Positions 32,920 through 56,276 of a DNA stretch of 64,000 nucleotides are shown here, in pieces. The translations under genes and the position numbers were made by a program. This DNA is from a virus, in IMG/VR virus record IMGVR_UViG_3300040801_004793, positions 57,017 through 121,016 of that record, one strand, 5' to 3'. Numbering within the stretch: the first letter of the stretch is position 1; every line of letters begins with the position of its first letter. The notes beneath the pieces were generated by a model. The model was not told where the DNA came from. It made no database searches and saw nothing but the letters and a program-made list of their open reading frames with translations.

Positions 32920-33225
32920 TTATTCCTTATAAGCTTTTGGTTTGGGTCCGTACCCTCGAAGTTTGTTTATATCGTAACCTTTTGGTCTAGCTCTAACCCA
33001 TTTACCTTTTTTAGCTAGATCTTCTTCTTTGGAAGAGAGATTTCTTGTTTGAATAACTTTATCTCCACCCCGTCTTTTCAACTTTCTAGCTTTAGAGATA
33101 GCTTCACTTCTAGATTCCGCGTTTACTAAGATAGGCGTTCTTCGACCTTCAAAAAAGACTGCTTTACCCCTTTTTTTACGGGGCTTTAGGTCTCTACTTC
33201 CTTTCTTTCTAGCGAAATTTATCAT
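32920..33225 (-). CDS. Small basic protein with FARKKGSRD N-terminal tag
   Basis: I take the start at the ATG at 33225 (101 residues, MINFARKKGSRDLKPRKK...). A longer GTG reading from 33267 would translate the terminator hairpin at 33234-33261, which is unlikely. The first 20 residues carry the motif F-A-R-K-[KR]-G-S-R-D shared by four other small basic proteins in this region. The rest is Lys/Arg-rich (RSEAISKARKLKRRGGDKVIQ ... KGYDINKLRGYGPK). Likely binds DNA or another acidic partner. It may be packaged in the virion. The homologues occur between head and tail genes. Confidence 0.6.
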   Translation of the reverse strand: MINFARKKGSRDLKPRKKRGKAVFFEGRRTPILVNAESRSEAISKARKLKRRGGDKVIQTRNLSSKEEDLAKKGKWVRARPKGYDINKLRGYGPKPKAYKE

Positions 33226-33233
33226 AATTAAAA

Positions 33234-33261
33234 AAGGGGGTAAATATACACTTACCCCCTT
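33234..33261 (-). terminator. Rho-independent terminator
   Basis: On the minus strand AAGGGGGTAA pairs with TTACCCCCTT (10 bp) across an 8-base loop, followed by a T run. It ends the major tail protein transcript before the next gene. Confidence 0.8.
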
Positions 33262-33294
33262 CCTCACCTAACCTACACACTATTCAAAATGAAA

Positions 33295-34089
33295 TTAAAT
33301 ACAAGCAACTTTCAAAGGTGTAGCATAGACATTCCAAGCGCTACATTCACCAGGAAGGTTGTTCAGGAATAGAGACATCTCTAGACCTTCTCCACCAAAG
33401 TCAATAGACTTACCTTCAACGTTAGGTGTAACGTTTCTAGCTTCGAAAATCGTAATTTGGTTTAGCGTATCCACCATGAGAGCGTAGACTTCGTGTGGTC
33501 CTACAAGAACATCACTCAGGGTAATACCTGTAACATTGTGGGGAATTAGCAAAGAAACTAGTTCATTTGCTGCCACTAGGTTGTTAGAGTACTTGAGAGC
33601 ACCGTCAGCGCCTAAAGCAAAACTGTCATCTGTAGTAGGATCAAAAGTATCGTAGTCTTGTCTAGTCAAAGCTGTGGACAACAGATTACGAGTCACAGAA
33701 GCAGAAACTCTAGCATCGTTAGCTACTACACCTTGCATAAGATATCCCGCAGCGTCTCCAGCAACTTCATTGCTAGAAACTTCCATCAACAGGGGAATAT
33801 AAGTATCGAAGGTACCAGCAGCTTGCTCGTTACCTACGTTGAAGCTTAACATTTCCGGTTGAATATAGTTGTACGAAATAGAAAGTTCTGGTGTAGTGCC
33901 AGCAACGTAAGATCCAGTTCTTACTTTACGGCCCTGTTTGTTTCTACCCATTTGAACTCTTTGTTCAATATTAGTTGCCAGAGTAAAGTTATCGGGGGTA
34001 GGCCAGTTTAACACTACGCCATCGCTCTTTCTTTTCATCTGGAGTGTACTAATACCAACATAGGTCCGTTGGTTAATACTAATAGTCAT
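33295..34089 (-). CDS. Major tail (tube) protein
   Basis: The 264-residue protein is of the expected size for a siphophage tail tube subunit, with a beta-rich, low-charge sequence: MTISINQRTYVGISTLQMKR, PELSISYNYIQPEMLSFNVG, VGPHEVYALMVDTLNQITIFEARNV. It lies between connector genes and the tail chaperones and tape measure, and is followed by a strong terminator, so it can be made in large amounts. No tail sheath gene is present next to it, supporting a non-contractile tail. Its family was inferred from position and composition. Confidence 0.65.
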   Translation of the reverse strand: MTISINQRTYVGISTLQMKRKSDGVVLNWPTPDNFTLATNIEQRVQMGRNKQGRKVRTGSYVAGTTPELSISYNYIQPEMLSFNVGNEQAAGTFDTYIPLLMEVSSNEVAGDAAGYLMQGVVANDARVSASVTRNLLSTALTRQDYDTFDPTTDDSFALGADGALKYSNNLVAANELVSLLIPHNVTGITLSDVLVGPHEVYALMVDTLNQITIFEARNVTPNVEGKSIDFGGEGLEMSLFLNNLPGECSAWNVYATPLKVACI

Positions 34090-34093
34090 TTAT

Positions 34094-34384
34094 TTACTCC
34101 TCGTTATTAGTTTCGGTTTGTTCTTCTACTTTCCTTCTTTTTCTAGGTTTAGCAGCAGAAGTAGTTGTTTCGATATTTGTTGGTTCGGTTTTGGTAATTT
34201 CTATTACGCTAGAGTCAACATCATATTCAAATTTAATTGTTCCTAATCTAGCTAAGTAATTAATCTCTTCAACTAAAAAATCATCTTTTAAGTATATCCC
34301 TGGAGTTATTACTCTTCTAGCTGTAACTCCGGGAGGGGCTGTATAACAATTTTGAATTACTCTAATTTTTTGTTTTAATTTCAT
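34094..34384 (-). CDS. Small protein with basic nuclear-signal-like tail (unknown)
   Basis: The 96-residue protein starts 4 bases inside the stop of the upstream gene (ATGA overlap). The first 60 residues alternate hydrophobic and polar residues (YLKDDFLVEEINYLARLGTIKFEY) like a small folded domain. The C-terminus is Thr/Glu-rich with a KPRKRRKVEEQ basic cluster. No family recognised. It lies directly upstream of the major tail protein gene and could be an accessory virion protein. Confidence 0.45.
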   Translation of the reverse strand: MKLKQKIRVIQNCYTAPPGVTARRVITPGIYLKDDFLVEEINYLARLGTIKFEYDVDSSVIEITKTEPTNIETTTSAAKPRKRRKVEEQTETNNEE

Positions 34385-34647
34385 AATTTTCTTCTAGGTA
34401 TTCTATTTCTATTTCTATTTTTATAAGAAATACGATTTTTTAAACCTGTAATTCTATTTCTAATTTTGTTTATTTCAGCCCCTTTTCTAATTGTAGCATC
34501 TGAGTTTTTAGCTGCAACTAAACCAGATCTAGCTTTTTGTTTCATCCCCTGTAACATCCCTGAAATTGTAGTAAAGCCTTGTTGACCTCGACCTCTCCGA
34601 AGTTTTGATCGCATGGCTCTTTTCATTTTTGTTATAGGGGAATCCAT
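34381..34647 (-). CDS. Very basic small protein (Arg/Lys-rich)
   Basis: This 88-residue protein is dominated by Arg, Lys and Asn (MKRAMRSKLRRGRGQQGF ... ISYKNRNRNRIPRRKL). The segment RNRITGLKNRISYKN looks like a short internal repeat. Its composition is protamine-like, fitting DNA or RNA binding. It lacks the FARK tag of its neighbours. It overlaps the next gene by 4 bases, so it is in the same operon. Confidence 0.5.
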   Translation of the reverse strand: MDSPITKMKRAMRSKLRRGRGQQGFTTISGMLQGMKQKARSGLVAAKNSDATIRKGAEINKIRNRITGLKNRISYKNRNRNRIPRRKL

Positions 34648-34678
34648 TTATATAACTAACCTTTTTTACTTCAGTCTC

Positions 34679-35146
34679 TTATTTTTTCCTGCGGAATCTA
34701 TTTCTTAAATCCGAAGTAGCGCCTTGAAGTCTAGCAGTATTTCTACCTAGACTCGAAGCTGCACTATTGAGAACTCCTTGTTTTCTAATATTAGAGATTC
34801 TCTGACGAGTGTTACCGACAAAACGACCTGCTCTAGTCGCTCCAGAAAGAGCCGCGTTGTTAGCAGAACGTCCGAGGCTTGACGCTCCTCTCCTAACTCT
34901 TGCAATTGGATCTCTTCTCACGGATGCACTCAAAGCAGAGGTCGGCATTGGAATACCTCCGTTTACTCTTTTAGGACCTTTTTTTCTTCCTCTAGCTGCC
35001 AAAGCAGCTCCTCCTAAACCGGCGGCTCCAGCAATAGCCCCCGCTGCAGCAAGCCCTCTTTTATTAACACTCACAGAACGTCTTCTTTTTTTTCTTCGAC
35101 CTTTATCTCTAGATCCTTTCTTTCTTGCAAATTCGTAATAACTCAT
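34679..35146 (-). CDS. Small basic protein with FARKKGSRD tag
   Basis: The 155-residue protein begins MSYYEFARKKGSRDKG, then a run of Arg/Lys. A Gly/Ala-rich hydrophobic segment follows (about residues 30-50, GLAAAGAIAGAAGLGGAALAA), then a basic C-terminal part with repeated S[LA]GR and RN motifs. The tag is nearly identical to that of the gene at 36078. The pattern of basic tag, hydrophobic glycine/alanine stretch and basic tail is shared with the next members. No known family. Inferred to be a virion-associated nucleic-acid or membrane interacting protein. Confidence 0.55.
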   Translation of the reverse strand: MSYYEFARKKGSRDKGRRKKRRRSVSVNKRGLAAAGAIAGAAGLGGAALAARGRKKGPKRVNGGIPMPTSALSASVRRDPIARVRRGASSLGRSANNAALSGATRAGRFVGNTRQRISNIRKQGVLNSAASSLGRNTARLQGATSDLRNRFRRKK

Positions 35147-35193
35147 TTTTATCTCCTTTTTTTATTACTTTATTTTTTAGTTTGTACTAAACG

Positions 35194-35538
35194 TTAAACA
35201 AAGTTAACTTTGTTTTTTTGGACTCTTCTAGCTCCGCTAGCAATTTTAGAATTTACAGCAAAAGGAGTAGCTCTTGCTAAACCTCTAGCTTGATTAGAAA
35301 CACCCCGAGCGTAGTATTTCGCTCGTCTTCTTTTGCTACCAGATACATCTTCTCTAGCTGCTCTTCTTTGGCCTTTCCCATAACCATATTGTGCTATACC
35401 TCTTAAAGCTCCAGGAGCCTGTCTAGATGCAGCCCTTGTTCGGTTGCGGTTAACTTTTTTAGCCACCCCTTTAATTCCACTGTTAGCTCTATTTGCTAAA
35501 CTCACTAGTCCATTCTTTTTTTTCTTTCTATTAAACAT
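35194..35538 (-). CDS. Very basic small protein (Arg/Lys/Ala-rich)
   Basis: The 114-residue protein starts MFNRKKKKNGLVSLANRANSG and continues with Ala-rich basic repeats (RNRTRAASRQAPGALRG, KGQRRAAREDVSGSKRRRAKYY). It has no FARK tag but matches the composition of the tagged set. Its coding region ends within a 20-base palindrome at 35196-35215. It lies between the tagged protein at 34679 and a likely tail completion gene. Confidence 0.5.
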   Translation of the reverse strand: MFNRKKKKNGLVSLANRANSGIKGVAKKVNRNRTRAASRQAPGALRGIAQYGYGKGQRRAAREDVSGSKRRRAKYYARGVSNQARGLARATPFAVNSKIASGARRVQKNKVNFV

Positions 35539-35542
35539 AGTA

Positions 35543-36040
35543 TTAATTTAAATCCTTAAATTGAAATTGAATACGAAGGAAAGGGTATACTACTTGCATT
35601 TGTTCATTTGCGGTTAACAGATAATTTACTGTGTAATCTCTGTTTTCTTGAGGAGGGGGCTGTAAATTTAAATCTCTTCTAGAATAACTATGAAGTCCTA
35701 TATTTAATTTTCTACCTATCCAATATAAAAGATCTGGAAGTTTATCTAGGTCAGGATACACTACAGAATAAGTTATTGCCCCTGTAGTAAAATCAGTAGT
35801 TTCGGTAGCTCTTTTAAAAGTATCTGTGAGTCTGTATACCTTTAGTATTGGAAACTCTGAAAGAGGTATGTTGACAGCATCATAATTTCTAATATTTCTA
35901 ATAACTAAACCATCTTTCAATTCAGGTCGAGTTTCTCGTAATTTAACGTATTCGTTGTTTACAAAGTCTCTCAAAAAACGAGCTAATTTTAAACAGTACT
36001 CGTTTTCTCCTATTAAGTAAATGGGGCTAGTATCACTCAT
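35543..36040 (-). CDS. Tail terminator/tail completion-like protein
   Basis: The 165-residue protein has a mixed alpha/beta pattern with a long N-terminal helix (YCLKLARFLRDFVNNEYVKLRE), then strands (IPLSEFPILKVYRLTD) and a C-terminal set of strands ending in YPFLRIQFQF. Size and location between connectors and the major tail tube resemble tail terminator proteins (lambda gpU/HK97 gp10 neighbourhood), which cap the tail and join it to the head. No strong signature motif. Assignment is by position. Confidence 0.45.
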   Translation of the reverse strand: MSDTSPIYLIGENEYCLKLARFLRDFVNNEYVKLRETRPELKDGLVIRNIRNYDAVNIPLSEFPILKVYRLTDTFKRATETTDFTTGAITYSVVYPDLDKLPDLLYWIGRKLNIGLHSYSRRDLNLQPPPQENRDYTVNYLLTANEQMQVVYPFLRIQFQFKDLN

Positions 36041-36077
36041 ATAAACTATTATACTTTATTCAAACTTTTTAATAACT

Positions 36078-36422
36078 CTAGCTTCTCTTTTTTCTTTGTT
36101 TCATTCGAGCTCTCTCTAAAAACTTTTTACTCCAGTATTTTTGACTACCGGGGTGAGCTTGTAAACCAGGAGCTCTATCTATCTCACTACCAAAACCTGT
36201 TACAAACCCGTCTAGTGGGGGAGCTTCTGTTCTCGGCTCTCTTTTTTTTACTTCTTTTCTAGCTTCTACTGTTTTTGCTAATTTTCTAGCAGCAAGACCA
36301 GTAAGACCTATACCAGTTAGTCCTATACCTACTTTTAGAGCAGTTTTCTTTTGAGAGATTCTTTTTTTACGCCTCTTTTTATCTCGGCTTCCTCTTTTTC
36401 TTGCAAATTCGTAATAACTCAT
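36078..36422 (-). CDS. Small basic protein with FARKRGSRD tag
   Basis: The 114-residue protein begins MSYYEFARKRGSRDKKRRKK, then an IGLTGIGLTGLAA hydrophobic glycine-rich stretch, then Lys/Arg-rich sequence and a Pro/Gly-containing C-terminus (APPLDGFVTGFGSEIDRAPG ... RARMKQRKKRS). The N-terminus matches that of the protein at 34679. It is co-oriented with, and 10 bases from, the next tagged gene, indicating duplication or cassette-like reuse of the tag. Confidence 0.55.
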   Translation of the reverse strand: MSYYEFARKRGSRDKKRRKKRISQKKTALKVGIGLTGIGLTGLAARKLAKTVEARKEVKKREPRTEAPPLDGFVTGFGSEIDRAPGLQAHPGSQKYWSKKFLERARMKQRKKRS

Positions 36423-36432
36423 TTTTTCTTGT

Positions 36433-36849
36433 TTAAAATATGTCGTCAGCTAGCTGACCCTTAGTTTTCCTTTTTCCTCGTCTCCTGTTAACGGTGATGC
36501 TAGGAGGTCCACCTCTTTGAGCATCTATTTCTTTAATAGCCTTGGAAACAAAATTGCCCGGTAAAACAAAATTGCCCGGAGGTCTAGATGTTTTTATTTC
36601 TGATATTGTATCGTTAGTTCTTTTTGCTTTTTGTTCAAAGGCCTGTTTAGACTTCTCTCTTCTTTTTTTAGCGATAGTTTTAATTCTGTTTCCAATTTTA
36701 TCGTGATTTGCAGTTAACCAAGCAGCCCCAGCTAAAGCTCCGGTTGCGGCAAGTCCTTTAAAATATTTTTTAGTTTTTTTAGGTATAGGTCTTCTTTTTT
36801 TCCTAGGTTTTTTATCCCTACTGCCTCTTTTTCTAGCAAATTCGTACAT
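36433..36849 (-). CDS. Small basic protein with FARKRGSRD tag
   Basis: The 138-residue protein begins MYEFARKRGSRDKKPRKKRR, then an Ala/Gly-rich hydrophobic segment (GLAATGALAGAAWLTANH), then basic and polar sequence, with PGNFVLPGNFVSKAI showing a short tandem repeat. Only the tag and charge pattern are shared with its neighbours; the rest differs, so the tag behaves as a separable module. Confidence 0.55.
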   Translation of the reverse strand: MYEFARKRGSRDKKPRKKRRPIPKKTKKYFKGLAATGALAGAAWLTANHDKIGNRIKTIAKKRREKSKQAFEQKAKRTNDTISEIKTSRPPGNFVLPGNFVSKAIKEIDAQRGGPPSITVNRRRGKRKTKGQLADDIF

Positions 36850-36854
36850 TACGT

Positions 36855-37247
36855 TTACCTAACTTTTTTTCTTTTTTTTGAATTTCCGTGTCCAAGTTCC
36901 TTAGATCTACTAACATAATACCCTGCAGCTCCCGTACCTAAAGCAGTTCCAACTATCCCAGGCATGTCCCTCTTTAGACCTGCTTTCAGCCTTCTAGGGA
37001 AATTTGTTTTAAGGGAATATCCTAAAGATCCTCCTATACTTTTTCCTGCTCTTCTACCTGCCCAGAAACCATCGCCAAGCTCCTCAAGAGCTGTACGAGA
37101 GATTTGTGCGCCAGCTCCAATCCCTAACCCTGCTGCAGCTCCTCTTAATCTATTTTTACTAGAAATATTTTTTTTCCTAGGTTTTTTATCCCTACTGCCT
37201 CTTTTTCTAGCAAAATTTAAATTGCTAGTTTGTCCTATAAATTTCAT
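36855..37247 (-). CDS. Small basic protein with FARKRGSRD tag
   Basis: The 130-residue protein begins MKFIGQTSNLNFARKRGSRD, the tag being displaced by 8 extra residues relative to the others. A glycine-rich stretch follows (GAAAGLGIGAGAQISRTALEE), then a basic C-terminus with GYYVSRSKELGHGNSKKRKK. It overlaps the connector gene upstream (37244-37756) by 4 bases, so it is embedded in the head-tail operon. Confidence 0.55.
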   Translation of the reverse strand: MKFIGQTSNLNFARKRGSRDKKPRKKNISSKNRLRGAAAGLGIGAGAQISRTALEELGDGFWAGRRAGKSIGGSLGYSLKTNFPRRLKAGLKRDMPGIVGTALGTGAAGYYVSRSKELGHGNSKKRKKVR

Positions 37248-37762: not shown

Positions 37763-38401
37763 TTACCAATCCCCTGTAAAAGGATACCTTCTAGGTTCAA
37801 ATCCAGCCGTAGAATCACTTTCCCCAAAATAGTGTTTTCCCGGTAGTTTAGTTTTATTTTGTACTACAGTAGTGTTTTTAGTTACGTTATCAGGAATCTG
37901 ATCTCTACCTAGTAATCTCTCACCTGGTAGTCTAAGAGGCTGTCTTTCTCCATGTAGAGTTTTATGGTCTACTGGAGGACTAACTGCAATATAAATGTTA
38001 GAACCGGCAGTAATTTGTTGAAGCAATGACTTAGCATGAACATCTAAATTCATAGCTGTCTGACTAATATCCGAAGCTTGCATAATAGGGTTGCTGCCTT
38101 CAAAGTGAATCTGAATTAATCCAGCGATGGATAAAGATTCACTAATATCTGCCAGAATATTTCTAGTTACTTCATGACTCAAACGAAGAGGAGTTACGTA
38201 TATTTGAGAAAGAATTAAATCAATATAACCTTCTTTTCGTTCAGCTACGAGAGTAATAGTTTCCGGGTCAACAACATTTCCCGCTACTACGTTTCCATAA
38301 CCTAGCGCCTGAGTGAGAGCCGTATCAATGGGAGGAGTTTCTTCTATATTAAGTCTCCCCCGAAGTCTTCTAGCTATGTTCTCGACAGTAGTGTATTTCA
38401 T
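37763..38401 (-). CDS. Head-tail adaptor-like protein (Mu gp36/DUF1320-like)
   Basis: The 212-residue protein begins MKYTTVENIARRLRGRLNIEE, then an acid/hydrophobic pattern ending in KEGYIDLILSQIYVTPL. This is the signature order of DUF1320/gp36-like neck adaptors: first helix, then a helix with an I-D-x-x-L pattern, then a Y-x-x-P motif. The C-terminal half (about residues 140-212) is a Pro/Lys/Gly-rich extension unlike the core family. Adaptors attach to the portal to build the neck. Confidence 0.5.
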   Translation of the reverse strand: MKYTTVENIARRLRGRLNIEETPPIDTALTQALGYGNVVAGNVVDPETITLVAERKEGYIDLILSQIYVTPLRLSHEVTRNILADISESLSIAGLIQIHFEGSNPIMQASDISQTAMNLDVHAKSLLQQITAGSNIYIAVSPPVDHKTLHGERQPLRLPGERLLGRDQIPDNVTKNTTVVQNKTKLPGKHYFGESDSTAGFEPRRYPFTGDW

Positions 38402-39021
38402 TATCTTTTTCTAGATCTCCTAGATTTTCTTTTAGACCTCACAGAAGAAGACTTTTTCTTTCTAGTAAAGGGTTTTACTTTTTTACCATTACGAATATAA
38501 CCTTTTACTCTTACAGTTCCACCCTCTTTGTTTTCAGCTTCTTTCATTGCAAGCTGTCTTTCTTTAAGGTCTAACTGTCTTTTAATAAGGGGTCTTTTTC
38601 CTTTACTTTGGTCAATAGATTTTTCCCACAAGTCAGTACGTCTTGCGGTTTCTGCTAATTCAGCTTTTTTAGCTTCTAGCTTACTTTTATCGTAGTCTAA
38701 TCTTTTTCCTTCTGTTTTAATACCGGATATAGTTTTAGCTACGGCAGCTCCCCCTCTAGCAGCTTTGGTTCCCGTATGTACTACGTTTGCAATTTTTCCC
38801 GCAGTAGAAATAGCTCTATCTAACCTTTTAGCTCCAGTTTGACGTTTTTGATAGACCCCTTGACCTATAGAAGCTGCACCCGCAAGCTGTCTCAAAGCTT
38901 TTGTAGCTGGAACTGATCTAGCTAGAAATACGTCTAGTTCACTACGCTTTGCATAGTTGATAGTACTATTATTATATAAAAAATTTATTTTATTCTGAAG
39001 TTTGCTTAAAGAGTTTCTCAT
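38401..39021 (-). CDS. Basic helical protein in connector region
   Basis: The 206-residue protein is rich in Lys, Arg and Ala. The middle part (about residues 40-120) contains Ala/Gly-rich helix with TAGKIANVVHTGTKAA; the C-terminal half is charged (KEAENKEGGTVRVKGY) and ends in a basic tail (KKKSSSVRSKRKSRRSRKR). No known motif. Its N-terminal NYAKRSELD may weakly resemble the FARK tag of nearby genes. It overlaps the adaptor gene by 1 base. It may be part of the same basic protein set, perhaps an internal head protein. Confidence 0.45.
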   Translation of the reverse strand: MRNSLSKLQNKINFLYNNSTINYAKRSELDVFLARSVPATKALRQLAGAASIGQGVYQKRQTGAKRLDRAISTAGKIANVVHTGTKAARGGAAVAKTISGIKTEGKRLDYDKSKLEAKKAELAETARRTDLWEKSIDQSKGKRPLIKRQLDLKERQLAMKEAENKEGGTVRVKGYIRNGKKVKPFTRKKKSSSVRSKRKSRRSRKR

Positions 39022-39353: not shown

Positions 39354-39878
39354 TTAAGAATTGAAGTCAATTTCAATAGAAGTCCAATCTTTACCAAAAG
39401 GTAAATTGACTCTTTCATTAAGATCTCTATAATCCGTAAAAGCAGACTTCTCTCTTAATCGAATTACTTTCTTTGCAGTTGCTTCTGAAATACCAGGTAA
39501 ACCTTGTAGAGTGTCTAAATCTACACTATTTACTTTTACCCCATTAGGCTTACTTTCTGTCTGAGTAGCTTTCAAAGAAATATTATCAGAGGGTCTAGTC
39601 TTAATAGAGACTTCTTCAGAGAGACCCGATCCTGGTTTTCCCTTAGAGACTTTTACCTCAGAAGTTTCAAACTTCCCTTCTCCTGCCATTTTTACTTCTT
39701 TTACCGCTTCTTTTACTTCAGGGATGTCTTCTTCAATTTCTTGAACAATATAGTAAGAAGTATAAGCCTTTTTAGGTAATTCTCCAGGATTATAAATACC
39801 GGGATAAAAAGTATTTCCTGATTTGCTAACAAAAACTCTTAATAGTTTTACTGGTTTGTCTTCTCTAAAATCTTCCAT
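39354..39878 (-). CDS. Protein with C-terminal ComEA-like helix-hairpin-helix
   Basis: The 174-residue protein has an N-terminal mixed domain (about 1-50), then an acidic linker, a Ser/Lys-rich spacer, and at about residues 115-165 a tandem HhH pattern. VNSVDLDTLQGLPGISEATAKKVI, with RLREKSAFTDYRDL following, is the typical ComEA/HhH order (N-x-A...L-x-x-LPGI-x-x-x-x-A-x-x-I-x-x-x-R-x-x-x-x-F-x-x-x-x-D-L). HhH domains bind DNA without sequence specificity. In the connector region such a domain may hold or guide packaged DNA, or the protein may link head and tail. Upstream of it, a terminator separates the major capsid gene. Confidence 0.6.
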   Translation of the reverse strand: MEDFREDKPVKLLRVFVSKSGNTFYPGIYNPGELPKKAYTSYYIVQEIEEDIPEVKEAVKEVKMAGEGKFETSEVKVSKGKPGSGLSEEVSIKTRPSDNISLKATQTESKPNGVKVNSVDLDTLQGLPGISEATAKKVIRLREKSAFTDYRDLNERVNLPFGKDWTSIEIDFNS

Positions 39879-39968: not shown

Positions 39969-41081
39969 TTAGGTAGCGTCAGAAACTTGCTGAGAGAAAA
40001 ACAGCTTGGGATCTGCAAATACGGGAATAATAGTAGCCACGGCTTGGCTTACATCCACAGGGGGAACTTTTTGTTTTTCATAAGTAGTAACAAAAACACC
40101 TGCTTTACCATCATTCTCTAGAGTGGGACCCATTGCTCTTTCGCCCATGTTTTCTTTCATAAACACGAAACGATTATCATGCAGAAATCTAGAGTTAGCT
40201 AGACTTTGATCTCCCAATTCATTTCTGTACTTCTCGTCAAAAGTCTTGATTGTAGGTAGTCCACGAGCTTCTAAAATAGCAGCAAGCATTTTAGGACTCA
40301 CGGTTCCTACTTGAGTAACAGTTAAAGAAGAAGCAGCATCTTTGGTAGATTGCTGTTGCATTAGGTCGTTCAAGGTCTTACGGCTCATGTAGTTCACATC
40401 TGGAGAAAAACCATTTGTATCTACATAAGTATCAACTGCGTTGTAAAGGTCTTGAATACCGTTTGCAGTAGCATGTTCTGACCACCTCTCACCACCAACT
40501 TTAGCGTTGGGGAAGTGATTGTAATTACCGGATCTCTTATAATTCAGTTTTGTGACAACACCCGTACGAGGGTCAGTTCTGTTTAGTTCTCCGAATTGAA
40601 GAACCTGCCAAGTCATATGATTCAGCAGTTCCACTTGAGCCGCTGACAGTTTTTCGATTGTGCCGAAAATAAAGGAAGCTAAGTCTCCGTTAGAACCCTT
40701 AATCACTTTGCCATCTTTGGAAGCGTTTTGAATTTTAATACCTTTAGCTAGAGCCTCTGCACGAGCGTCTTTAATATGCCATTGATATTCTTCATCCCAA
40801 ACATAAGCAAGGCTGGATTTCATCATTTCAGCCGTGATTTTGGTAATGTTTCCTTGGTTTGTCACAGGTGGTTCTGCACCGTACGCCACCACCGAAGCGA
40901 TGACATTAATGTTTTCTACCACGTATGCCAGGAAGTTTCTACTCTCGTACGTTTTAAAAGGTACATAGGGGCCAAGAGCATTAGCATCTCTTCTTTTTAG
41001 ATCATCAAGGGTATCCTCAACAATCAGGTCGGCCATTTTATTTTGATGGGCTTCATTAAGCCACTGTGCGATTTGTGCCAT
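39969..41081 (-). CDS. Major capsid protein (lambda gpE-like)
   Basis: The 370-residue protein fits lambda-type major capsid proteins. Near the N-terminus is AEPPVTNQGNITKITAEMMK, like the region following the N-arm. A central helix is followed by a strongly characteristic segment TYVDTNGFSPDVNYMSRKTL, comparable to the gpE family motif A-x-D...Y-x-P-D-x-x-x-MS-x-x-x-x. Then comes FVFMKENMGERAMGPT and a C-terminal P-domain. It has a good ribosome binding site (AAGGAA) and a terminator, as expected for the most abundant virion protein. Confidence 0.8.
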   Translation of the reverse strand: MAQIAQWLNEAHQNKMADLIVEDTLDDLKRRDANALGPYVPFKTYESRNFLAYVVENINVIASVVAYGAEPPVTNQGNITKITAEMMKSSLAYVWDEEYQWHIKDARAEALAKGIKIQNASKDGKVIKGSNGDLASFIFGTIEKLSAAQVELLNHMTWQVLQFGELNRTDPRTGVVTKLNYKRSGNYNHFPNAKVGGERWSEHATANGIQDLYNAVDTYVDTNGFSPDVNYMSRKTLNDLMQQQSTKDAASSLTVTQVGTVSPKMLAAILEARGLPTIKTFDEKYRNELGDQSLANSRFLHDNRFVFMKENMGERAMGPTLENDGKAGVFVTTYEKQKVPPVDVSQAVATIIPVFADPKLFFSQQVSDAT

Positions 41082-42019: not shown

Positions 42020-42922
42020 CTAGTCTCTTTTTAGAAGTTCAAGCATTTCTCTGGCTTCGTCTTCTACCTCATCCTCATTAATAGAGAAATCATAGGTAGG
42101 TCTATCAGACATTTCTTGTTCTGCGATTGCGGAAAAATACATTTCATTTCCAGGTAGAGGGCCGATCTCATCAAAGAGTTCTAGAGCAAAAGCTACACAT
42201 TGCAGATAAGTAGCTGGATCTAGTTCAGACTCCTCTACGGCACTAGAGAAATTCATGTAATCATCTTGAGGCCGCTCACTAAACAAAAGAGCATATGCAT
42301 GAGGAGTAATACTCTTAGAAAACAGAAGTTCGTCCGCATAGTCTCTTAAAGTAGAAAGAGTATCGGTAATAACCATTCTAACTTCCATTTCTTCCATGGC
42401 TTCTGCATAACGACTAAAGTTTTCTGCACCTTCTAGAATAGCTTCTTCTAAATCTTCATCTTCTAGGTAATCTTCGATTTCAGTGTCATCTTCCTCGTCG
42501 TAGTACTCGTCTTCATCGTACTCGTCTTCATCGTACTCGTCTTCATCATACTCGTCGTCTTCATCGTACTCGTCGTCCTCGTCTTCTTCAGGATCTTCTT
42601 CTAAAGCTTCCACTAGATCATAAGCATCTTCAGCCGAGTTTACTAGTCTCAGTTGATCGAGTTCGCTATCAGGAGAGAGTTCCATTAGAAGTTCTACAGT
42701 TTCAACACTAGGAAGAACTTCTCCGGTTAAAAGACCAATAATGGTAGTCTCATCAGCCTCAAAGCCTTGACTTTCAAAAGTATCAACCAAGTCTTCTACG
42801 GCGGTGTCGATATCATCGTATTGATCTTCTAAAATACCCAGAAGAGCATGTCCAAAGGGGTTTTGAAGAGCAGAAGTAGAGAAATTAATAAGTCCCTCGT
42901 AATCGCCTCTATAAAAATCCAT
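42020..42922 (-). CDS. Acidic protein, scaffold candidate
   Basis: The 300-residue protein is extremely acidic, with a central run of tandem DEYDE-type repeats at about residues 112-143. Scaffolding proteins are often acidic, helical and Glu-rich and are encoded between protease and capsid genes, as here. Its ends are helical (GYEG-like start with ILEDQYDDIDTAVEDLVDTF; C-terminal AREMLELLKRD). It could instead be an internal head or acidic mimic protein. No catalytic motif. Confidence 0.5.
   Translation of the reverse strand: MDFYRGDYEGLINFSTSALQNPFGHALLGILEDQYDDIDTAVEDLVDTFESQGFEADETTIIGLLTGEVLPSVETVELLMELSPDSELDQLRLVNSAEDAYDLVEALEEDPEEDEDDEYDEDDEYDEDEYDEDEYDEDEYYDEEDDTEIEDYLEDEDLEEAILEGAENFSRYAEAMEEMEVRMVITDTLSTLRDYADELLFSKSITPHAYALLFSERPQDDYMNFSSAVEESELDPATYLQCVAFALELFDEIGPLPGNEMYFSAIAEQEMSDRPTYDFSINEDEVEDEAREMLELLKRD
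42495..42590 (-). repeat. Tandem repeat in acidic protein gene
   Basis: About six imperfect copies of a 15-base unit (TCGTACTCGTCTTCA on the plus strand), encoding the DEYDE repeats. It is prone to length variation by replication slippage. Confidence 0.75.
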
Positions 42923-42944: not shown

Positions 42945-43895
42945 TTAGTAGTTTCTAATAAAACCGACGCTTTTCAGTTTTCTATGGTAATCAGTAGCGG
43001 ATAAACTAGGAGGGTAGGGTTTTCCACCAGAACCCTTAGTATTATTAGTTACTCGTAAATCCGTTTCTGTGTCATTTTCGTCAGAATCCTCTTCTGACTC
43101 TTGTAAATTAAACATTTCAGATACTTGATCTATAAAATGTTCAATTGCGTCATAGGAAGCTTTAATAGGATTAATTCCTTTTAACTCCTCCTCAGACGAA
43201 GTTCTTATATCGTAAAGAATTCTGAACAATCCTTCACTTAGTTTATCATAACTCTGTTTAAGTTCTGTTTTATCTTCGCTTAATTTTTTTAATTCCTCAA
43301 AACTAAAAGCTTTTCTTTCAAACTTTCTAGAAGATTCAGAATGAGATTGTTTATTATCCTGGTTAGCCGGGGTTAAGCTGCTTTCAAACAAGATAATATT
43401 ATCTTCAGTCGATCCAGCTCTACTAAATAAAGTGGGACCTATAATAGCGGGAACTGGAGTAGCACTAATTTCACAGAAACTTTCTGTCGCGGGATCAATA
43501 CCAGGAGAAAGAGTGCTAATACTTTTACTTTTAATTTTTTGTACTACGTCTTCCCCTCTAGCTACAATGCTGTCAACAAAGACTCCAAGTTTTCCTACTA
43601 AGTGTTGAAATTTACTATTAGGTAAATCTTGTTCTGTAATTACTTTTGTGTAGAATTCAGATTCTACATCTCCAATATTATTTCCCTGGTCTTTTTTATG
43701 ATCTAATTGAAAGGGAATTCTTCTTCCTTGACGAAGAAAATTATTTGAATTTTCTACAATTTTTTTAATTCTATCGGGGCCAAAAAAATGAGTACGTTTT
43801 TGAGAGTCCGTGTGCTCTCCCTCTATAAATACGAGAGCAGGTCTAGCTAAAGTACTTACTCCATCTTCTTTTTGATTAAAACTAATAAACGACAT
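42945..43895 (-). CDS. Prohead protease with C-terminal scaffold-like extension
   Basis: The 316-residue protein fits the Mu-like I (protease-scaffold) architecture. The N-terminal about 150 residues hold RIPFQLDHKKDQGNNIGDVES, with the LDH histidine, then an SKSISTLSPGIDPATESF segment that may carry the catalytic Ser. The family ending pattern EISATPVPAIIGPTLF is present. The C-terminal half is charged and helical (FEELKKLSEDKTELKQS), like a scaffold. It lies directly before the acidic candidate and the capsid gene and overlaps the MuF gene by 1 base (TAATG). Confidence 0.65.
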   Translation of the reverse strand: MSFISFNQKEDGVSTLARPALVFIEGEHTDSQKRTHFFGPDRIKKIVENSNNFLRQGRRIPFQLDHKKDQGNNIGDVESEFYTKVITEQDLPNSKFQHLVGKLGVFVDSIVARGEDVVQKIKSKSISTLSPGIDPATESFCEISATPVPAIIGPTLFSRAGSTEDNIILFESSLTPANQDNKQSHSESSRKFERKAFSFEELKKLSEDKTELKQSYDKLSEGLFRILYDIRTSSEEELKGINPIKASYDAIEHFIDQVSEMFNLQESEEDSDENDTETDLRVTNNTKGSGGKPYPPSLSATDYHRKLKSVGFIRNY

Positions 43896-46800
43896 TACGA
43901 CTCCAGTTCAATAATTCTTTCAGCTAACTCTTTTCTTAATTGTAGCAGTTTTCTATAATACTCTAAAATTTCATTCCCGATAGTTACATTCATTCGGGTG
44001 AGTTGAGATTTATAATCTATTCTACCACTATGATTTTGAAGCTCTCTATAAGCTTGTTCTAATTCAGATAGGGTTAAGGAAAGATCTACCATATCTTCAA
44101 TTTTTCTGACTCTAAATTTTTTACCCGATTTTTCTATAAATTCTTCTTCTGCTTTAGAAACAGCTCTTTCCACTGTATTTAATAAGTACTCAGCCGTATC
44201 TATACTTTCTATAGAATCTGGAAGAATACTAAAGATATCTTCACCAGGCATTTTAGAACGAAAAGAATCGAGTACTTTAGAAGCTTCTCTATTGTATCTT
44301 TCAATTCCAGCTTCCATCTCTTTTACTCTTCTATAGCCAAAAGAATCTGCTTCGGCAGCGTTGTTTCTTATATTTTCTAAATTCTTAAGGTTTTTTACTC
44401 TCTCTAGAGATCTTATATTATTTAAACCTTTAAGAGACTCTAATCTAGAAATTTCTCTTTGTATGAAAGACTTCTGGATAGGATCTTTCTCTGTCTCTGC
44501 TAAATCTTGAAGAACCTTTTCTAGCTGATTAATTCTGTTAGAAGCTAATTCTAGTCTAGAGTCAAAAGACTTGTCACTAATAGTTTTTAGATACTTTTTA
44601 CCACTAAGTAAAGTAGGCTTTCTACCTGGAGTTCTAGAGAGGTAGTCGGGTTTATACTTAACAGAAATACTTCCGTTATAGTTAACAGAAATTTTATCAA
44701 TATTTTCTAAAGAAGTTGCTAGGCCAATGTCTCCTAATACCTCATTGGTAATGGATAGAACATCTCTTCTTATCTTGCTAGTTTCACTATTAATCTTTCT
44801 AAATAGCTCTTCTCTAATTTTTTCTCTATAAAGAGCATCTATCTTAGAACCCTGAGGGAGTAAAACCTTAGATAGGTCTTCTGTGGGTACCCCATTAATA
44901 GCCAAAGCTACAGCAGTTTCACCACGATTTAAAAGGGCATCTACTTCTTGACCTGACTTGCTAGTAATATCAACAATGAAGTCTTTATCTGAATTTTCTT
45001 TTTTAGTTAGTTCACCTACAACACCCGGAGGCAGAGCTTTTAGTTCACCTACAATTCCTTCTACGGCTCTTCTTACAGCTTCTTCCCCCATTTCTCCTAA
45101 AAAGTTTTTACCCTCTTCAACTTCTTCAGCCAGCCTTTCGCCTACGTACTCTTGTATTCCGTCTAGTAGTTTACTTTTGTGTAGTAAATACAATAGAGAC
45201 CCAGCACTAAAAATAGCTGCACCACCTAGAATAACTTTCATTAGGGGCTTATCATTTTTTTGTATTTCTTCTTTAGTAATAGTTTTGTTTCCATCGGAAT
45301 TTAATTTATTTACAAGAAAAGAAATACCCTGTTGATAGAGGTCTCCATATCTAAGAACGTTAAAAAGAGACCGTCTTAAACTAGGGCTACCTCTTTTTAG
45401 TCTGTAAATCAAAAGATCCACAGCTTTTTTCTTTACCTGATTTTTCTCTTTATTCTTAAAAGCTCTAGATTGTTTTTGTAATGACTCTAAAAGCCTAACA
45501 CTTTCTAAATCATTTTGTCCTGTATAAGGAATAACGTTTCCTAGTTTATCTGTCTTTACTCCTAGATCTCTTGCTAGGTATTTTTCATCTTCAGGTAGAT
45601 AGATTGGATGAAGGTAACTTCTGCATCTTGGATGTACCGGAGGAACCCAAACTCCGCTAGGAGACAATATTCTATTGCTAGGGTCTTCTGGAAGTGCTGT
45701 GGTATTTGGTATCGGTTGCATAGAAAGAATTACGTTTCTTACTTCTTCTATTTTGAAAACTCTTCCATTCATGCCCTGACAGAATTCGCTAGTTCTGTCA
45801 TCTAAAACTGAAACCCAAGTAACATACTTGACACCTTCTTCATAGAAAGCTTCAATTCTGCCTAAGTTATAAGCGGCACTTACTTCTGTAATAGCAACGG
45901 CCTCTGCCTGTTTTGTTACACGCTCATCAAAATAAATAGATCCTTTTCTTTCAGCAACCCCAATCAACCTGCGAAGATCTGCCCCTGACATTTCTTTATC
46001 TAAGCTTCTAATAGCTCCTTCAGATTTATAGCCTAGAGAATCGGCTAGCATTCTTTTTTCTTGATCTGAAAGCTTTACTTTTTTAGGATCAATAGTAATT
46101 GAAAAATCTTCTTGATCTATTCTTCTTTGTAACTCAGTAACACGAGATGTAGCTCTTTCTAGTATTTTAGTTTCAGACGCAATTCTCTGATTTATGAGAC
46201 TTCTGGCGGCAGATCTCATCTCCAGTTGTTGGGCCTTACTTGCACCTGCTGGCGGAGGAGTTAAATTTACAATGGAAAATATGTCGCTATCTTTGGATTT
46301 TAAAGCTTCTTTTAAGTTAAAGATTTCTCGGCTTTTTGAATTTACTAGATTAGATTGATTCTCTAAATCTTTTTGAGTTCTTCTTTCTACCTTTTCCATT
46401 TTTTTCTTGATAGAAGGAGGGTAGGGAACTTCAGACAAGCCCGCGTTTCTTCTTACCTCTCTTAATTTTTCTCGGTATTGAGTTTTTAAATCTCTTAGTC
46501 CATTTGTTTCTAAAACAAGTTTATTATACCTTTGTTTTTCTTCTCCTTTTAAAGAGGCGGACCTTCTTCCATTTAGTAATTTCGATACCTCTTGAGCTGT
46601 AGCCGCTATATCTTCAGAGAGGTCGTTTAGTTCATCATCTTGAGAGGGATCAAAACTAGCCGAGGCATCTAATTGTTTTTGGGTGATAACAGTCTTTCTC
46701 GACTCTAATTTCCCTCTAAGCAAATCTACAGCTTCTCTTGTTTTTTCAGCTCTTGGATCTGGGTCTAGATCTCGAATTAAGTTATTTAATAAGTCTTCTT

Positions 46801-47872
46801 GGTTTTTGGGTTTCTTCTGGGATCTTACGTATTCTGATACTTTTAGTTTGATAGTGCTTTGCAAATTATCATTCATGGAAGAACTTATTTGCTCTCCCCT
46901 TTTTTGTGTATAAACTCTAGCAAAATACGAGTCTTCTTTTACAGAAGAATATCTATTTGAATAATTTCGGCGAATCTCTCTTTGGGTTGTCAAGTTTAAA
47001 GAAGCGAGAGCTTTTTCTACAGAGTCCGCGTTTTCTTTTTCGTACTGATCTCGCTCTCTCTGTTTTGCTGTTAGGTAAGAAGGTGTAAGCTCTTGTCTCT
47101 TTTTAGATGCCCAATTAACTCTTCTTTGTTTTTTCTGTTTTTCTCGGGCTTCTTTTGCTAATATCTTGTCCGCCTCAGAAGTAGTTTCTTTTTGTTGTTT
47201 TTGTTCTTGATACTGTCTAATTAACTCTAAGTCTTCTGGGCTTACTGCTCTTCCAGTCTGTTTAGCCTCATTCGCTCTTTCTATAGCTTCTTTGCCTTTT
47301 TCCGTAACTTCTCTTTTTTGTCTTTCTCTAGTTGAGCGCTTCTCTTTTTCTTTATTTAAAGAGTCATAGCGAATAGAGGCTTGATAAGCCCGGTCACTAA
47401 TCATATCTCTAAAGTCTTGCCTCATCTGGTCCGTGACTTTAGATTTTTTAACTCCGAAGTACTTACTTACTAAAGGGTCATTGTCTTGGTTATCTCGACC
47501 TAAAATAATCTTAGCCCCTTCAATTTCTTTAGCCAGAGAGTCTAATTCATCATTTACATCTTTTTTAGAAGCAAACTCAATTATGTCAGAGACACCATAA
47601 CTTAAAGCAAAATCTGATTTTTTTTGTGACTTAACTTCTTTTTCACAATCCTTTATGCCCCCTACTACAGCTTGTTGCCATACAAAGGACCAAACATTTT
47701 GGGCTGCAACGTAGATGTTAAAATTTTTAGCTATGTCTTCTGGCTTTTTTGCCGTACGAAGAGAATTCCTCAAGCTTTCCTGAAAGGCTCTCTTGATGTT
47801 GGAAACGTAGATATCTTTGAGGGTATCTTGAAACTGGCCGATTTTTTTAGGGGTAACTTGTGGGGTGAACAT
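43895..47872 (-). CDS. Giant MuF-domain minor head protein
   Basis: The 1325-residue protein has a MuF/SPP1 gp7 domain at about residues 655-760. It is recognisable by AVAITEVSAAYNLGRIEAFYEEG, WVSVLDDRTSEFCQGMNGRVF and the Cys/His end HPRCRSYLHPIY. N-terminal about 600 residues are charged, coiled-coil rich. After MuF there is a hydrophobic segment near residues 875-897 (VILGGAAIFSAGSLLYLL) that may be membrane-embedding, then about 430 residues of charged coiled coil. MuF proteins are minor head components attached to the portal. The very long C-terminal part is unusual, although MuF proteins in other phages are often fused to extra domains including effectors. No toxin motif was recognised. 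Confidence 0.7.
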   Translation of the reverse strand: MFTPQVTPKKIGQFQDTLKDIYVSNIKRAFQESLRNSLRTAKKPEDIAKNFNIYVAAQNVWSFVWQQAVVGGIKDCEKEVKSQKKSDFALSYGVSDIIEFASKKDVNDELDSLAKEIEGAKIILGRDNQDNDPLVSKYFGVKKSKVTDQMRQDFRDMISDRAYQASIRYDSLNKEKEKRSTRERQKREVTEKGKEAIERANEAKQTGRAVSPEDLELIRQYQEQKQQKETTSEADKILAKEAREKQKKQRRVNWASKKRQELTPSYLTAKQRERDQYEKENADSVEKALASLNLTTQREIRRNYSNRYSSVKEDSYFARVYTQKRGEQISSSMNDNLQSTIKLKVSEYVRSQKKPKNQEDLLNNLIRDLDPDPRAEKTREAVDLLRGKLESRKTVITQKQLDASASFDPSQDDELNDLSEDIAATAQEVSKLLNGRRSASLKGEEKQRYNKLVLETNGLRDLKTQYREKLREVRRNAGLSEVPYPPSIKKKMEKVERRTQKDLENQSNLVNSKSREIFNLKEALKSKDSDIFSIVNLTPPPAGASKAQQLEMRSAARSLINQRIASETKILERATSRVTELQRRIDQEDFSITIDPKKVKLSDQEKRMLADSLGYKSEGAIRSLDKEMSGADLRRLIGVAERKGSIYFDERVTKQAEAVAITEVSAAYNLGRIEAFYEEGVKYVTWVSVLDDRTSEFCQGMNGRVFKIEEVRNVILSMQPIPNTTALPEDPSNRILSPSGVWVPPVHPRCRSYLHPIYLPEDEKYLARDLGVKTDKLGNVIPYTGQNDLESVRLLESLQKQSRAFKNKEKNQVKKKAVDLLIYRLKRGSPSLRRSLFNVLRYGDLYQQGISFLVNKLNSDGNKTITKEEIQKNDKPLMKVILGGAAIFSAGSLLYLLHKSKLLDGIQEYVGERLAEEVEEGKNFLGEMGEEAVRRAVEGIVGELKALPPGVVGELTKKENSDKDFIVDITSKSGQEVDALLNRGETAVALAINGVPTEDLSKVLLPQGSKIDALYREKIREELFRKINSETSKIRRDVLSITNEVLGDIGLATSLENIDKISVNYNGSISVKYKPDYLSRTPGRKPTLLSGKKYLKTISDKSFDSRLELASNRINQLEKVLQDLAETEKDPIQKSFIQREISRLESLKGLNNIRSLERVKNLKNLENIRNNAAEADSFGYRRVKEMEAGIERYNREASKVLDSFRSKMPGEDIFSILPDSIESIDTAEYLLNTVERAVSKAEEEFIEKSGKKFRVRKIEDMVDLSLTLSELEQAYRELQNHSGRIDYKSQLTRMNVTIGNEILEYYRKLLQLRKELAERIIELES

Positions 47873-47946: not shown

Positions 47947-48252
47947 ATGAATAAAAGTGAACTGACCCGAGTGCTTTACACTCTGATTAACAAGAACGTT
48001 TCTGGTGGTTACATTACTCTTAATGGAGCAGCTTCCGTTCTGGAAGATCTTGTGGATACTGTTTTTGCCAGCGTAAAAGATGGTGGAGAAGTGAGACTGC
48101 CTAAACTAGGTAAGCTTTATACTACTCAGTGTGCCGGACGTACTATTCCCCACCCTCATATTGAAGGTCAAGCATTGCAAGTGCCTCCGTTTAAACAGAT
48201 TCAGTTTAAAGCTTTTGATAGCGCTAAGAAAGTTCTTAACAGCAGAGACTAA
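47947..48252 (+). CDS. HU/IHF-family DNA-binding protein
   Basis: The 101-residue protein matches HU/IHF along its length. MNKSELTRVLYTL is the opening helix. A second helix follows. The stretch VKDGGEVRLPKLGKLYTTQCAGRTIPHPHIEGQALQVP corresponds to GD-x-V-x-L-x-GFG-x-F plus the DNA-intercalating arm with its conserved proline region (RTIPHP instead of R-x-x-R-N-P). It ends in QFKAFDSAKKVLN. HU bends and compacts DNA, assisting packaging, replication or transcription control. It is the only small gene on the plus strand within the packaging genes and has its own promoter. It overlaps the end of terL by 4 bases. Confidence 0.85.
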   Translation: MNKSELTRVLYTLINKNVSGGYITLNGAASVLEDLVDTVFASVKDGGEVRLPKLGKLYTTQCAGRTIPHPHIEGQALQVPPFKQIQFKAFDSAKKVLNSRD

Positions 48253-55583: not shown

Positions 55584-56276
55584 ATGGACCCGATTCATTT
55601 TAATCACTTAAGCTGTGAACAAATCACAGCAGCTACAGACCGAATTGTGGTCTATCGCAGCACCGCTAAGGTGGAATGGCTTGAACTTCATGCCGTACGG
55701 TCCCCCTATGGGGATGTTACAGGGTGGACCGTCACTAGACACAAATCCTGTGCTTTGACTCTGGAGACCGATAGTACCGGAATCCATAAAGGGTATGGCG
55801 AGGAGCCTACCTTAGATCATCGGGGTTACCTGACCCATAGTGCCAATATAGGAACCATTAAGGATGGGTTCCCGTTTGAACCATCATCCGACTATTTTTC
55901 CTTCTCCGATCGGGAAAATGCCTGGATTCCCGGTTGCCTTGGCAGAGCCCGGTCTGCCTTAGCTGAAGGCACCCTGTTTATAGCCGTCGAAGGCCATGGG
56001 GCTATGATCGGCTCCGTAGCCTATCAGTATCTCACGGGCATGATGCCCAAAGGGTCCGAGTCCATAGCCTTAACCCGTGCTATCGGGAAGGCACGTAAGC
56101 TAGAGCCTATTCCCGGCTCCGTAGACTGCCCTCTATACCACTATCGGGGTAGGGTAGCTACCGGCTCCAAGATCCCGAAACGGGATCTGCTAATCTATAA
56201 GCTGGCTCAGGATGAGTCGGTCTGGGGATTTTATATTCCCCAGGGAATAAATTTTGCCCGCAAGCGTAGGCGTTAA
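55584..56276 (+). CDS. Hypothetical protein (GC-rich array)
   Basis: The 230-residue protein is unknown. It begins MDPIHFNHLSCEQITAATDR and has beta-like segments (IVVYRSTAKVEWLELHAV). The centre has FIAVEGHGAMIGSVAYQYL, then KARKLEPIPGSV. It ends NFARKRRR, which looks like the FARK tag but lies at the C-terminus and is probably coincidental. The gene is followed by a strong terminator. Upstream leader described above. Confidence 0.55.
   Translation: MDPIHFNHLSCEQITAATDRIVVYRSTAKVEWLELHAVRSPYGDVTGWTVTRHKSCALTLETDSTGIHKGYGEEPTLDHRGYLTHSANIGTIKDGFPFEPSSDYFSFSDRENAWIPGCLGRARSALAEGTLFIAVEGHGAMIGSVAYQYLTGMMPKGSESIALTRAIGKARKLEPIPGSVDCPLYHYRGRVATGSKIPKRDLLIYKLAQDESVWGFYIPQGINFARKRRR

Follow-up and report, generated by a model that had tools for sequence, protein, structure and literature searches.

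Introduction

Bacteriophage T4 targets cargo proteins to its core with leaders of 10-19 residues, and the gp21 protease removes each leader at an L/I-x-E site that is also cut in the scaffold; both gp21 and the phiKZ protein gp175 undergo C-terminal processing (PMC9026906). In the Dar system of phage P1, DarB carries an N-terminal targeting signal and DarA is processed by Pro (PMC9024508, PMC12810830), and the inner-body and ejection proteins of phiKZ and SPN3US are cut at S/A-x-E or A-x-E sites (PMC7411985, PMC10052503), the SPN3US site being A-x-E with Ser preferred at position P1' (PMC10052503). Here we describe a short N-terminal tag, FARK[KR]GSRD, on five small basic proteins encoded in a 64,000-nucleotide stretch of viral DNA (the window), which comprises bases 57,017-121,016 of the 121 kb virus record IMGVR_UViG_3300040801_004793. 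With a probability of roughly two in three, we propose that the tag joins a capsid-targeting leader, a prohead-protease junction (F↓A, the arrow marking the proposed cut) and a basic, DNA-binding mature N-terminus on internal or ejected head proteins.

As with the T4 capsid-targeting sequence (CTS) of IPI-III and Alt, several proteins with unrelated bodies have a short N-terminal leader in common, and the cargo set changes fast. The tag has no sequence relation to the targeting systems of T4 or P1, and comparison most likely points to a module for capsid targeting and processing, an analogue of the T4 CTS system and not a member of it.

Results

Five proteins with a common N-terminal tag

The tag stands at the N-terminus of five open reading frames (ORFs) on the minus strand, its Phe codons starting at 33216, 35131, 36407, 36840 and 37214, and about 3-12 residues precede it. 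The protein at 32920..33225 (tag 33190-33216) reads MINF↓ARKKGSRDLKPRKKR; its mechanical ORF begins at a GTG at 33267, and the ATG at 33225 (MINFARKK...) is the start used in an original prediction made from the window alone. Those at 34679..35146 (tag 35105-35131) and 36078..36422 (tag 36381-36407) begin MSYYEF↓ARKKGSRDKGRRKKRRR, with a Gly/Ala stretch, and MSYYEF↓ARKRGSRDKKRRKKR, and they are followed by MYEF↓ARKRGSRDKKPRKKRR at 36433..36849 (tag 36814-36840) and MKFIGQTSNLNF↓ARKRGSRDKKPRKK at 36855..37247 (tag 37188-37214). All five ORFs of that prediction were thus confirmed, as were its statements that the bodies are unrelated, with no BLASTP match among the five outside the tag, and that a Gly/Ala-rich stretch follows the tag in four of them, the exception being 32920. 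A six-frame translation of the whole 121,016-base record contains no sixth exact copy of FARK[KR]GSRD.

Nine of the ten pairwise comparisons between the tags show 3-6 synonymous and 0-2 non-synonymous changes out of 11 codons. Because the differences are mainly synonymous, it is the peptide and not the DNA that is kept, and a DNA-level repeat as the origin of the shared tag is rejected. The tenth pair, the adjacent genes 36433 and 36855, is identical at 11/11 codons whereas the bodies and upstream DNA differ, suggesting that the tag alone was copied recently. A tag-like GINFARKRRR also occurs at the extreme C-terminus of an unrelated early-region protein (55584-56276, plus strand), probably by chance (E 0.29).

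The tag in related phages

The major capsid protein (MCP; 39969..41081, minus strand) defines the lineage, and its nearest isolates are the Pseudanabaena phages Pam2 and PA-SR01, at 31%; INPHARED contains no cultured member of the clade. Searches with one tagged protein or its DNA found no close relatives, nor did searches for relatives with the tail-tube protein, and a capsid profile matched neither GTDB genomes nor the PDB. A degenerate DNA pattern for FARK[KR]GSRDK matched exactly one other IMG/VR stretch, which belongs to G001, a phage of 44.8 kb with 55% identity to the window in the capsid protein. Gene order in G001 is the same around the homologs of window gene 37763 (45%) and, by reading of ORFs, of 37244, 35543 and 33295, and the same region holds at least four strict tags plus variants, with looser variants in the neighbours of the tagged genes. 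Here the tag usually lies behind a leader and not at the very start. Examples are ...GVDSYEF↓ARKRGSRDKQKRKRK, with a leader of 33 residues; ...AAYNLLEF↓ARTRGSRDKKPRRRRK, with a leader of about 55 residues whose first 42 match DUF6496 (E 3.9e-7); and MIGLIEF↓ARTKGAKDRRKR. Protein 32920, alone among the five, has a full-length ortholog, ...SSFVNF↓ARTLGAKDKKPRKRK in G001 (L016:14805-15173), which is 53% identical over the shared part and places a 22-residue leader before the tag.

A capsid-profile scan of IMG/VR yielded 66 loci. In a sister clade with capsids about 40% identical, we found families of small basic Gly/Ala-rich proteins that start xxFIGSTNSSYxRGKDKxKRKxR, such as MIKFIGNTSSNYARGKDKKKRKRR and MRDITFMGSTNNIEFNRKRGSKDKKKRKRK. 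A hidden Markov model (HMM) built from the sister-clade phages alone matched all five window proteins, with E values from 3.7e-9 to 5e-3 against a best shuffled value of 0.17, and the reciprocal HMM matched many sister-clade proteins; among phages whose other parts were fetched, there was no comparably strong match outside the head-tail region. Protein 36855 (MKFIGQTSNLNFARKRGSRDKKPRKK), whose leader matches the sister-clade xxFIGSTNSSY, forms a bridge between the two forms of the tag.

A second tag pattern, selected without capsid information, returned 95 stretches, from which 93 newly fetched loci were counted. The capsid protein and/or protease of the lineage is encoded in 32 of the 41 loci whose ORFs bear the tag N-terminally versus one of the other 52 (nominal p 1e-15, which overstates independence because the retrieved loci are related contigs). 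At least three of the nine tagged loci lacking both genes are pieces of lineage contigs severed from the capsid gene. Pattern matches of the recurrent ...MAKNQKRGKDKSKRKQR type (position 182 of a 240-residue protein) were rejected as chance, the capsid of the lineage being absent there. Locus L130 (capsid 48% identical) carries nine ORFs with the tag within 14.8 kb. In the MCP tree all tagged phages fall in one clade, and no tag was found on the branches of Pam2/PA-SR01, L028/L029 and L058; L007 and L008, the closest to the window, stop before the tag region and are therefore uninformative. The tag thus recurs lineage-wide, in G001, L130 and the sister clade, and on this comparative evidence it is a real, clade-wide module under selection. 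We found no description of it in the open-access papers searched.

The start of the tag recurs in head proteins

The start of the tag, [ILVY]-[NET]-F-[AS], is also found in other head proteins. The scaffold protein (42020..42922, minus strand) is the top-ranked ORF of its phage for [NEDQ]F[AS], with sites LINF↓S, AENF↓S, YMNF↓S and TYDF↓S; across genomes, the scaffold ranks first in G000, G004, Pam2, L029 and L038, at modest single-genome p values of 2e-4 to 9e-3. Nine scaffold proteins together contain 25 [NE]F[SA] sites where 4.0 are expected (0 of 400 shuffles), and no comparable excess was seen in capsid, pre-capsid, tail-tube, tape-measure or connector proteins. The residue preceding the scaffold motif is hydrophobic in 22 of 31 cases, versus 130 of 348 in the background (p 4e-4). 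The MuF-like minor head protein (43895..47872, minus strand) has the site IIEF↓ASKKD near residue 100, and across orthologs the IIEFAS of the window is replaced by VIEFAT or LITFAI (residues 100-144).

In front of this motif the leaders differ greatly in length and sequence, reaching about 55 residues in relatives. For a larger putative cargo protein (360-455 residues), the alignment of five orthologs begins at an invariant I-x-F-[AS] (I7, F9), preceded by leaders of five to more than 50 residues. Leader similarity (leaders hand-picked) is 0.405 within a lineage versus 0.266 between lineages, a difference reached in 0 of 5000 permutations.

The proposed leader-cutting enzyme is the head maturation (prohead) protease encoded at 42945..43895 (minus strand). 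Its identification as a prohead protease in the original prediction is borne out at the level of family, in that 12 of 18 orthologs match the PHROG_976 profile (best 2.5e-8; window copy 0.031). His65 and Ser143 (E-x-S-x4-P-A-I), invariant in 18 protease sequences, are the putative catalytic residues, and in many orthologs a basic tail at the C-terminus is preceded by F[SA] or FN.

Discussion

Proposed function and alternatives

From these comparisons we infer targeting, cleavage, DNA binding, ejection and a location in the virion for the tagged proteins. During prohead assembly the short, lineage-specific leader would bring each of them to the scaffold core, where protease 42945 would cut at [hydrophobic]-[N/E/T]-F↓[A/S] in the scaffold, in the MuF-like head protein and in every tagged cargo protein. 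The new N-terminus of the cargo, ARK[KR]GSRDKKxRKKR, would form a strongly basic arm that anchors it on packaged DNA, and as the cargo exits with the genome, its helical, Gly/Ala-rich stretch may enter the host membrane or become part of an ejection conduit. With Phe in place of Glu, such a T4-like scheme explains why the motif is shared, why the leaders vary and are lineage-specific, why the mature N-terminus is basic and why the genes lie where they do. Two functions that the original prediction had offered as alternatives, direction into the capsid and cleavage by protease 42945, are both favoured on comparative evidence, probably jointly, with the leader as the targeting element and F↓A as the cut; its third option, DNA binding, would fit the basic stretch that remains on the mature protein.

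Several observations weigh against this proposal. The F[AS] motif is short, its proteome-wide total is near expectation (51 versus 52.9 in G000), and the sites in the scaffolds have a common descent. The MCP has no obvious N-terminal cleavage site, and no clear F[SA] site is seen at the C-terminus of the window protease; a model of the protease (predicted local distance difference test, pLDDT, 60) gave no Foldseek hit in the PDB at E<=0.001. Sister phages often have Tyr at P1, and Gly, Lys or Phe at P1'. Finally, the conserved basic part is far longer than a protease site requires. Conservation is highest in a basic stretch (RxxGSxDKKxRKKR) beyond the supposed cut, as would be expected if the tag were an uncleaved anchor by which internal proteins bind DNA or scaffold, with no involvement of the protease; the basic character of all the bodies agrees with it too. 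An uncleaved anchor leaves unexplained the invariant Phe with [NET] before it and Ala or Ser after it, the same motif in an acidic scaffold, and the long variable leaders, and we consider it unlikely, though the likeliest of the alternatives.

The tagged genes are flanked by connectors and tail genes, and the Gly/Ala stretches look membrane-active by reading, so that the proteins might instead belong to the tail or the head-tail junction, or act early on membranes as effectors expressed in the cell, with a tag that addresses another partner such as the membrane, the host nucleoid or the tail. Related tagged genes, however, also adjoin the protease and scaffold genes (L136, L142), and neither the tie to the capsid and protease lineage nor that to the scaffold motif would be explained, which makes such roles quite improbable. 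Still less credit, in our view, is due to a functionless N-terminus, shared only because 5' gene ends were recently duplicated or recombined at a cassette hot spot. The tags of 36433 and 36855, with their different bodies and upstream DNA, are what such an origin would produce, but the remaining pairs differ mostly synonymously, and retention of the peptide between clades as far apart as that of the window phage and the sister clade argues for selection at the protein level. The suggestion that the proteins are cyanobacterial peptides found no support; any cyanobacterial link would come only from the distant Pseudanabaena phages.

Comparison with described systems

If the proposed targeting and cleavage by the prohead protease are correct, the scaffold and cargo have a two-to-three-residue site in common, as in T4, phi-x-E there and phi-x-F here, with cleavage in the present case deduced from comparison. 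The Glu that T4 has at P1 (L/I-x-E) is absent, the conserved residue being Phe, or Tyr in the sister phages. Unlike T4, this phage has a siphophage-type gene order and another capsid and protease family; the conserved stretch continues into the basic N-terminus of the putative mature protein, and there is no sequence similarity. The P1 Dar system resembles the proposal in its N-terminal capsid-loading signal, its propeptide removal and its basic, DNA-facing internal proteins; it differs in that P1 has no separate scaffold and that such signals are not known in a large protein set. With phiKZ and SPN3US the likeness lies in the many head proteins with N-terminal propeptides, the favoured Ser at P1' and the C-terminal processing of the protease, and the difference in that these are giant myophages with long propeptides and Glu specificity. 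Pam2 and PA-SR01 (Siphoviridae), the nearest capsid isolates, have a protease and a scaffold with F[AS] sites but no FARKKGSRD-type tag. For Pam2, mass spectrometry has served to identify proteins of the virion (PMC9382816).

A wider proposition, which we advance only tentatively, is that a clade of uncultured siphophages uses an undescribed modular head-loading code (leader, phi-x-F↓A/S and basic arm) read by a Phe-specific prohead protease, and delivers up to about ten fast-changing injected proteins per phage, including enzyme-sized cargo. Early-acting injected proteins are usually undetectable by homology. If our reading of the tag is right, DNA sequence would suffice, through the tag, to predict which unknown phage proteins ride in the head and are injected at infection, targeting signals of the T4 and P1 kind would extend to a broad siphophage clade, and a new protease specificity, possibly with a handle for protein delivery, would be at hand.

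Other genes of the head region

The region is rich in basic proteins (net charge/length >=0.10), encoding eight of the 12 that the phage has. Two very basic small proteins without the tag, at 34381..34647 and 35194..35538 (both minus strand; no relatives found), are candidate internal proteins, as is the basic protein at 38401..39021 (minus strand). All three had been described as lacking the tag, which holds for the first two; the third has a degenerate INYAKRSELD, not significant against the sister-clade HMM (E 0.9). At its C-terminus is VKGYIRNGKKVKPFTR, an instance of a second recurrent motif, VK[GS][YH]xRKGKxV[RK]xxxR, found across the clade in many proteins of the head region (window 38401-39021; L016:6079, 10200 and 11930; L023:5208; L136; L142), often C-terminally or close to an F[AS] site. 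The N-termini of L016:10200 and L016:11163, which are basic, Gly/Ala-rich head-region proteins and not evident endonucleases, match the NUMOD3 DNA-binding motif (PF07460; 0.0021 and 1.6e-6).

A conserved family of 280-626 residues (RLESHSTS...GGSDxYFxxNF; L016:7452, L016:8333, L023:18666, L021:18487, L021:20102 and L136:2385) has no database match, and most of the proteins in it carry [EQ]F[KN]K near the N-terminus. We rejected an ADP-ribosyltransferase (T4 Alt-like) assignment for the tagged proteins of 280-626 residues, a reading of motifs for which sequence searches of Pfam, NCBIfam and the PDB gave no match and the model reached pLDDT 43, and likewise an alpha/beta hydrolase assignment for those of 360-455 residues, again a motif reading with no library or model support. 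A basic protein at L130:5365-6105, within the tagged cluster beside the capsid gene, contains a protein-kinase-like domain (PF00069, 7e-9).

The 907-residue large terminase (48249-50972, minus strand) has an internal LAGLIDADG homing-endonuclease region (PF14528 2.6e-6, PF05204 1.3e-4), probably an intein inserted after ...CPPRHSK. An intein-splicing domain (PF14890, 6.4e-9) also interrupts the MuF-like head protein at L008:280-5457, at HIN↓CRSF (the arrow here marking the insertion), and is absent from the near-identical L007:594-4841. By reading, the ORFs L007:8949-10010 and L008:9501-11507, directly downstream of the capsid gene, encode GIY-YIG-like endonucleases in which domains are repeated. 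In most of the relatives that were examined, the capsid gene is followed by one for a small protein whose repeat resembles, by reading, a helix-hairpin-helix (LQGLPGISEATAKKVI; window 39354-39878).

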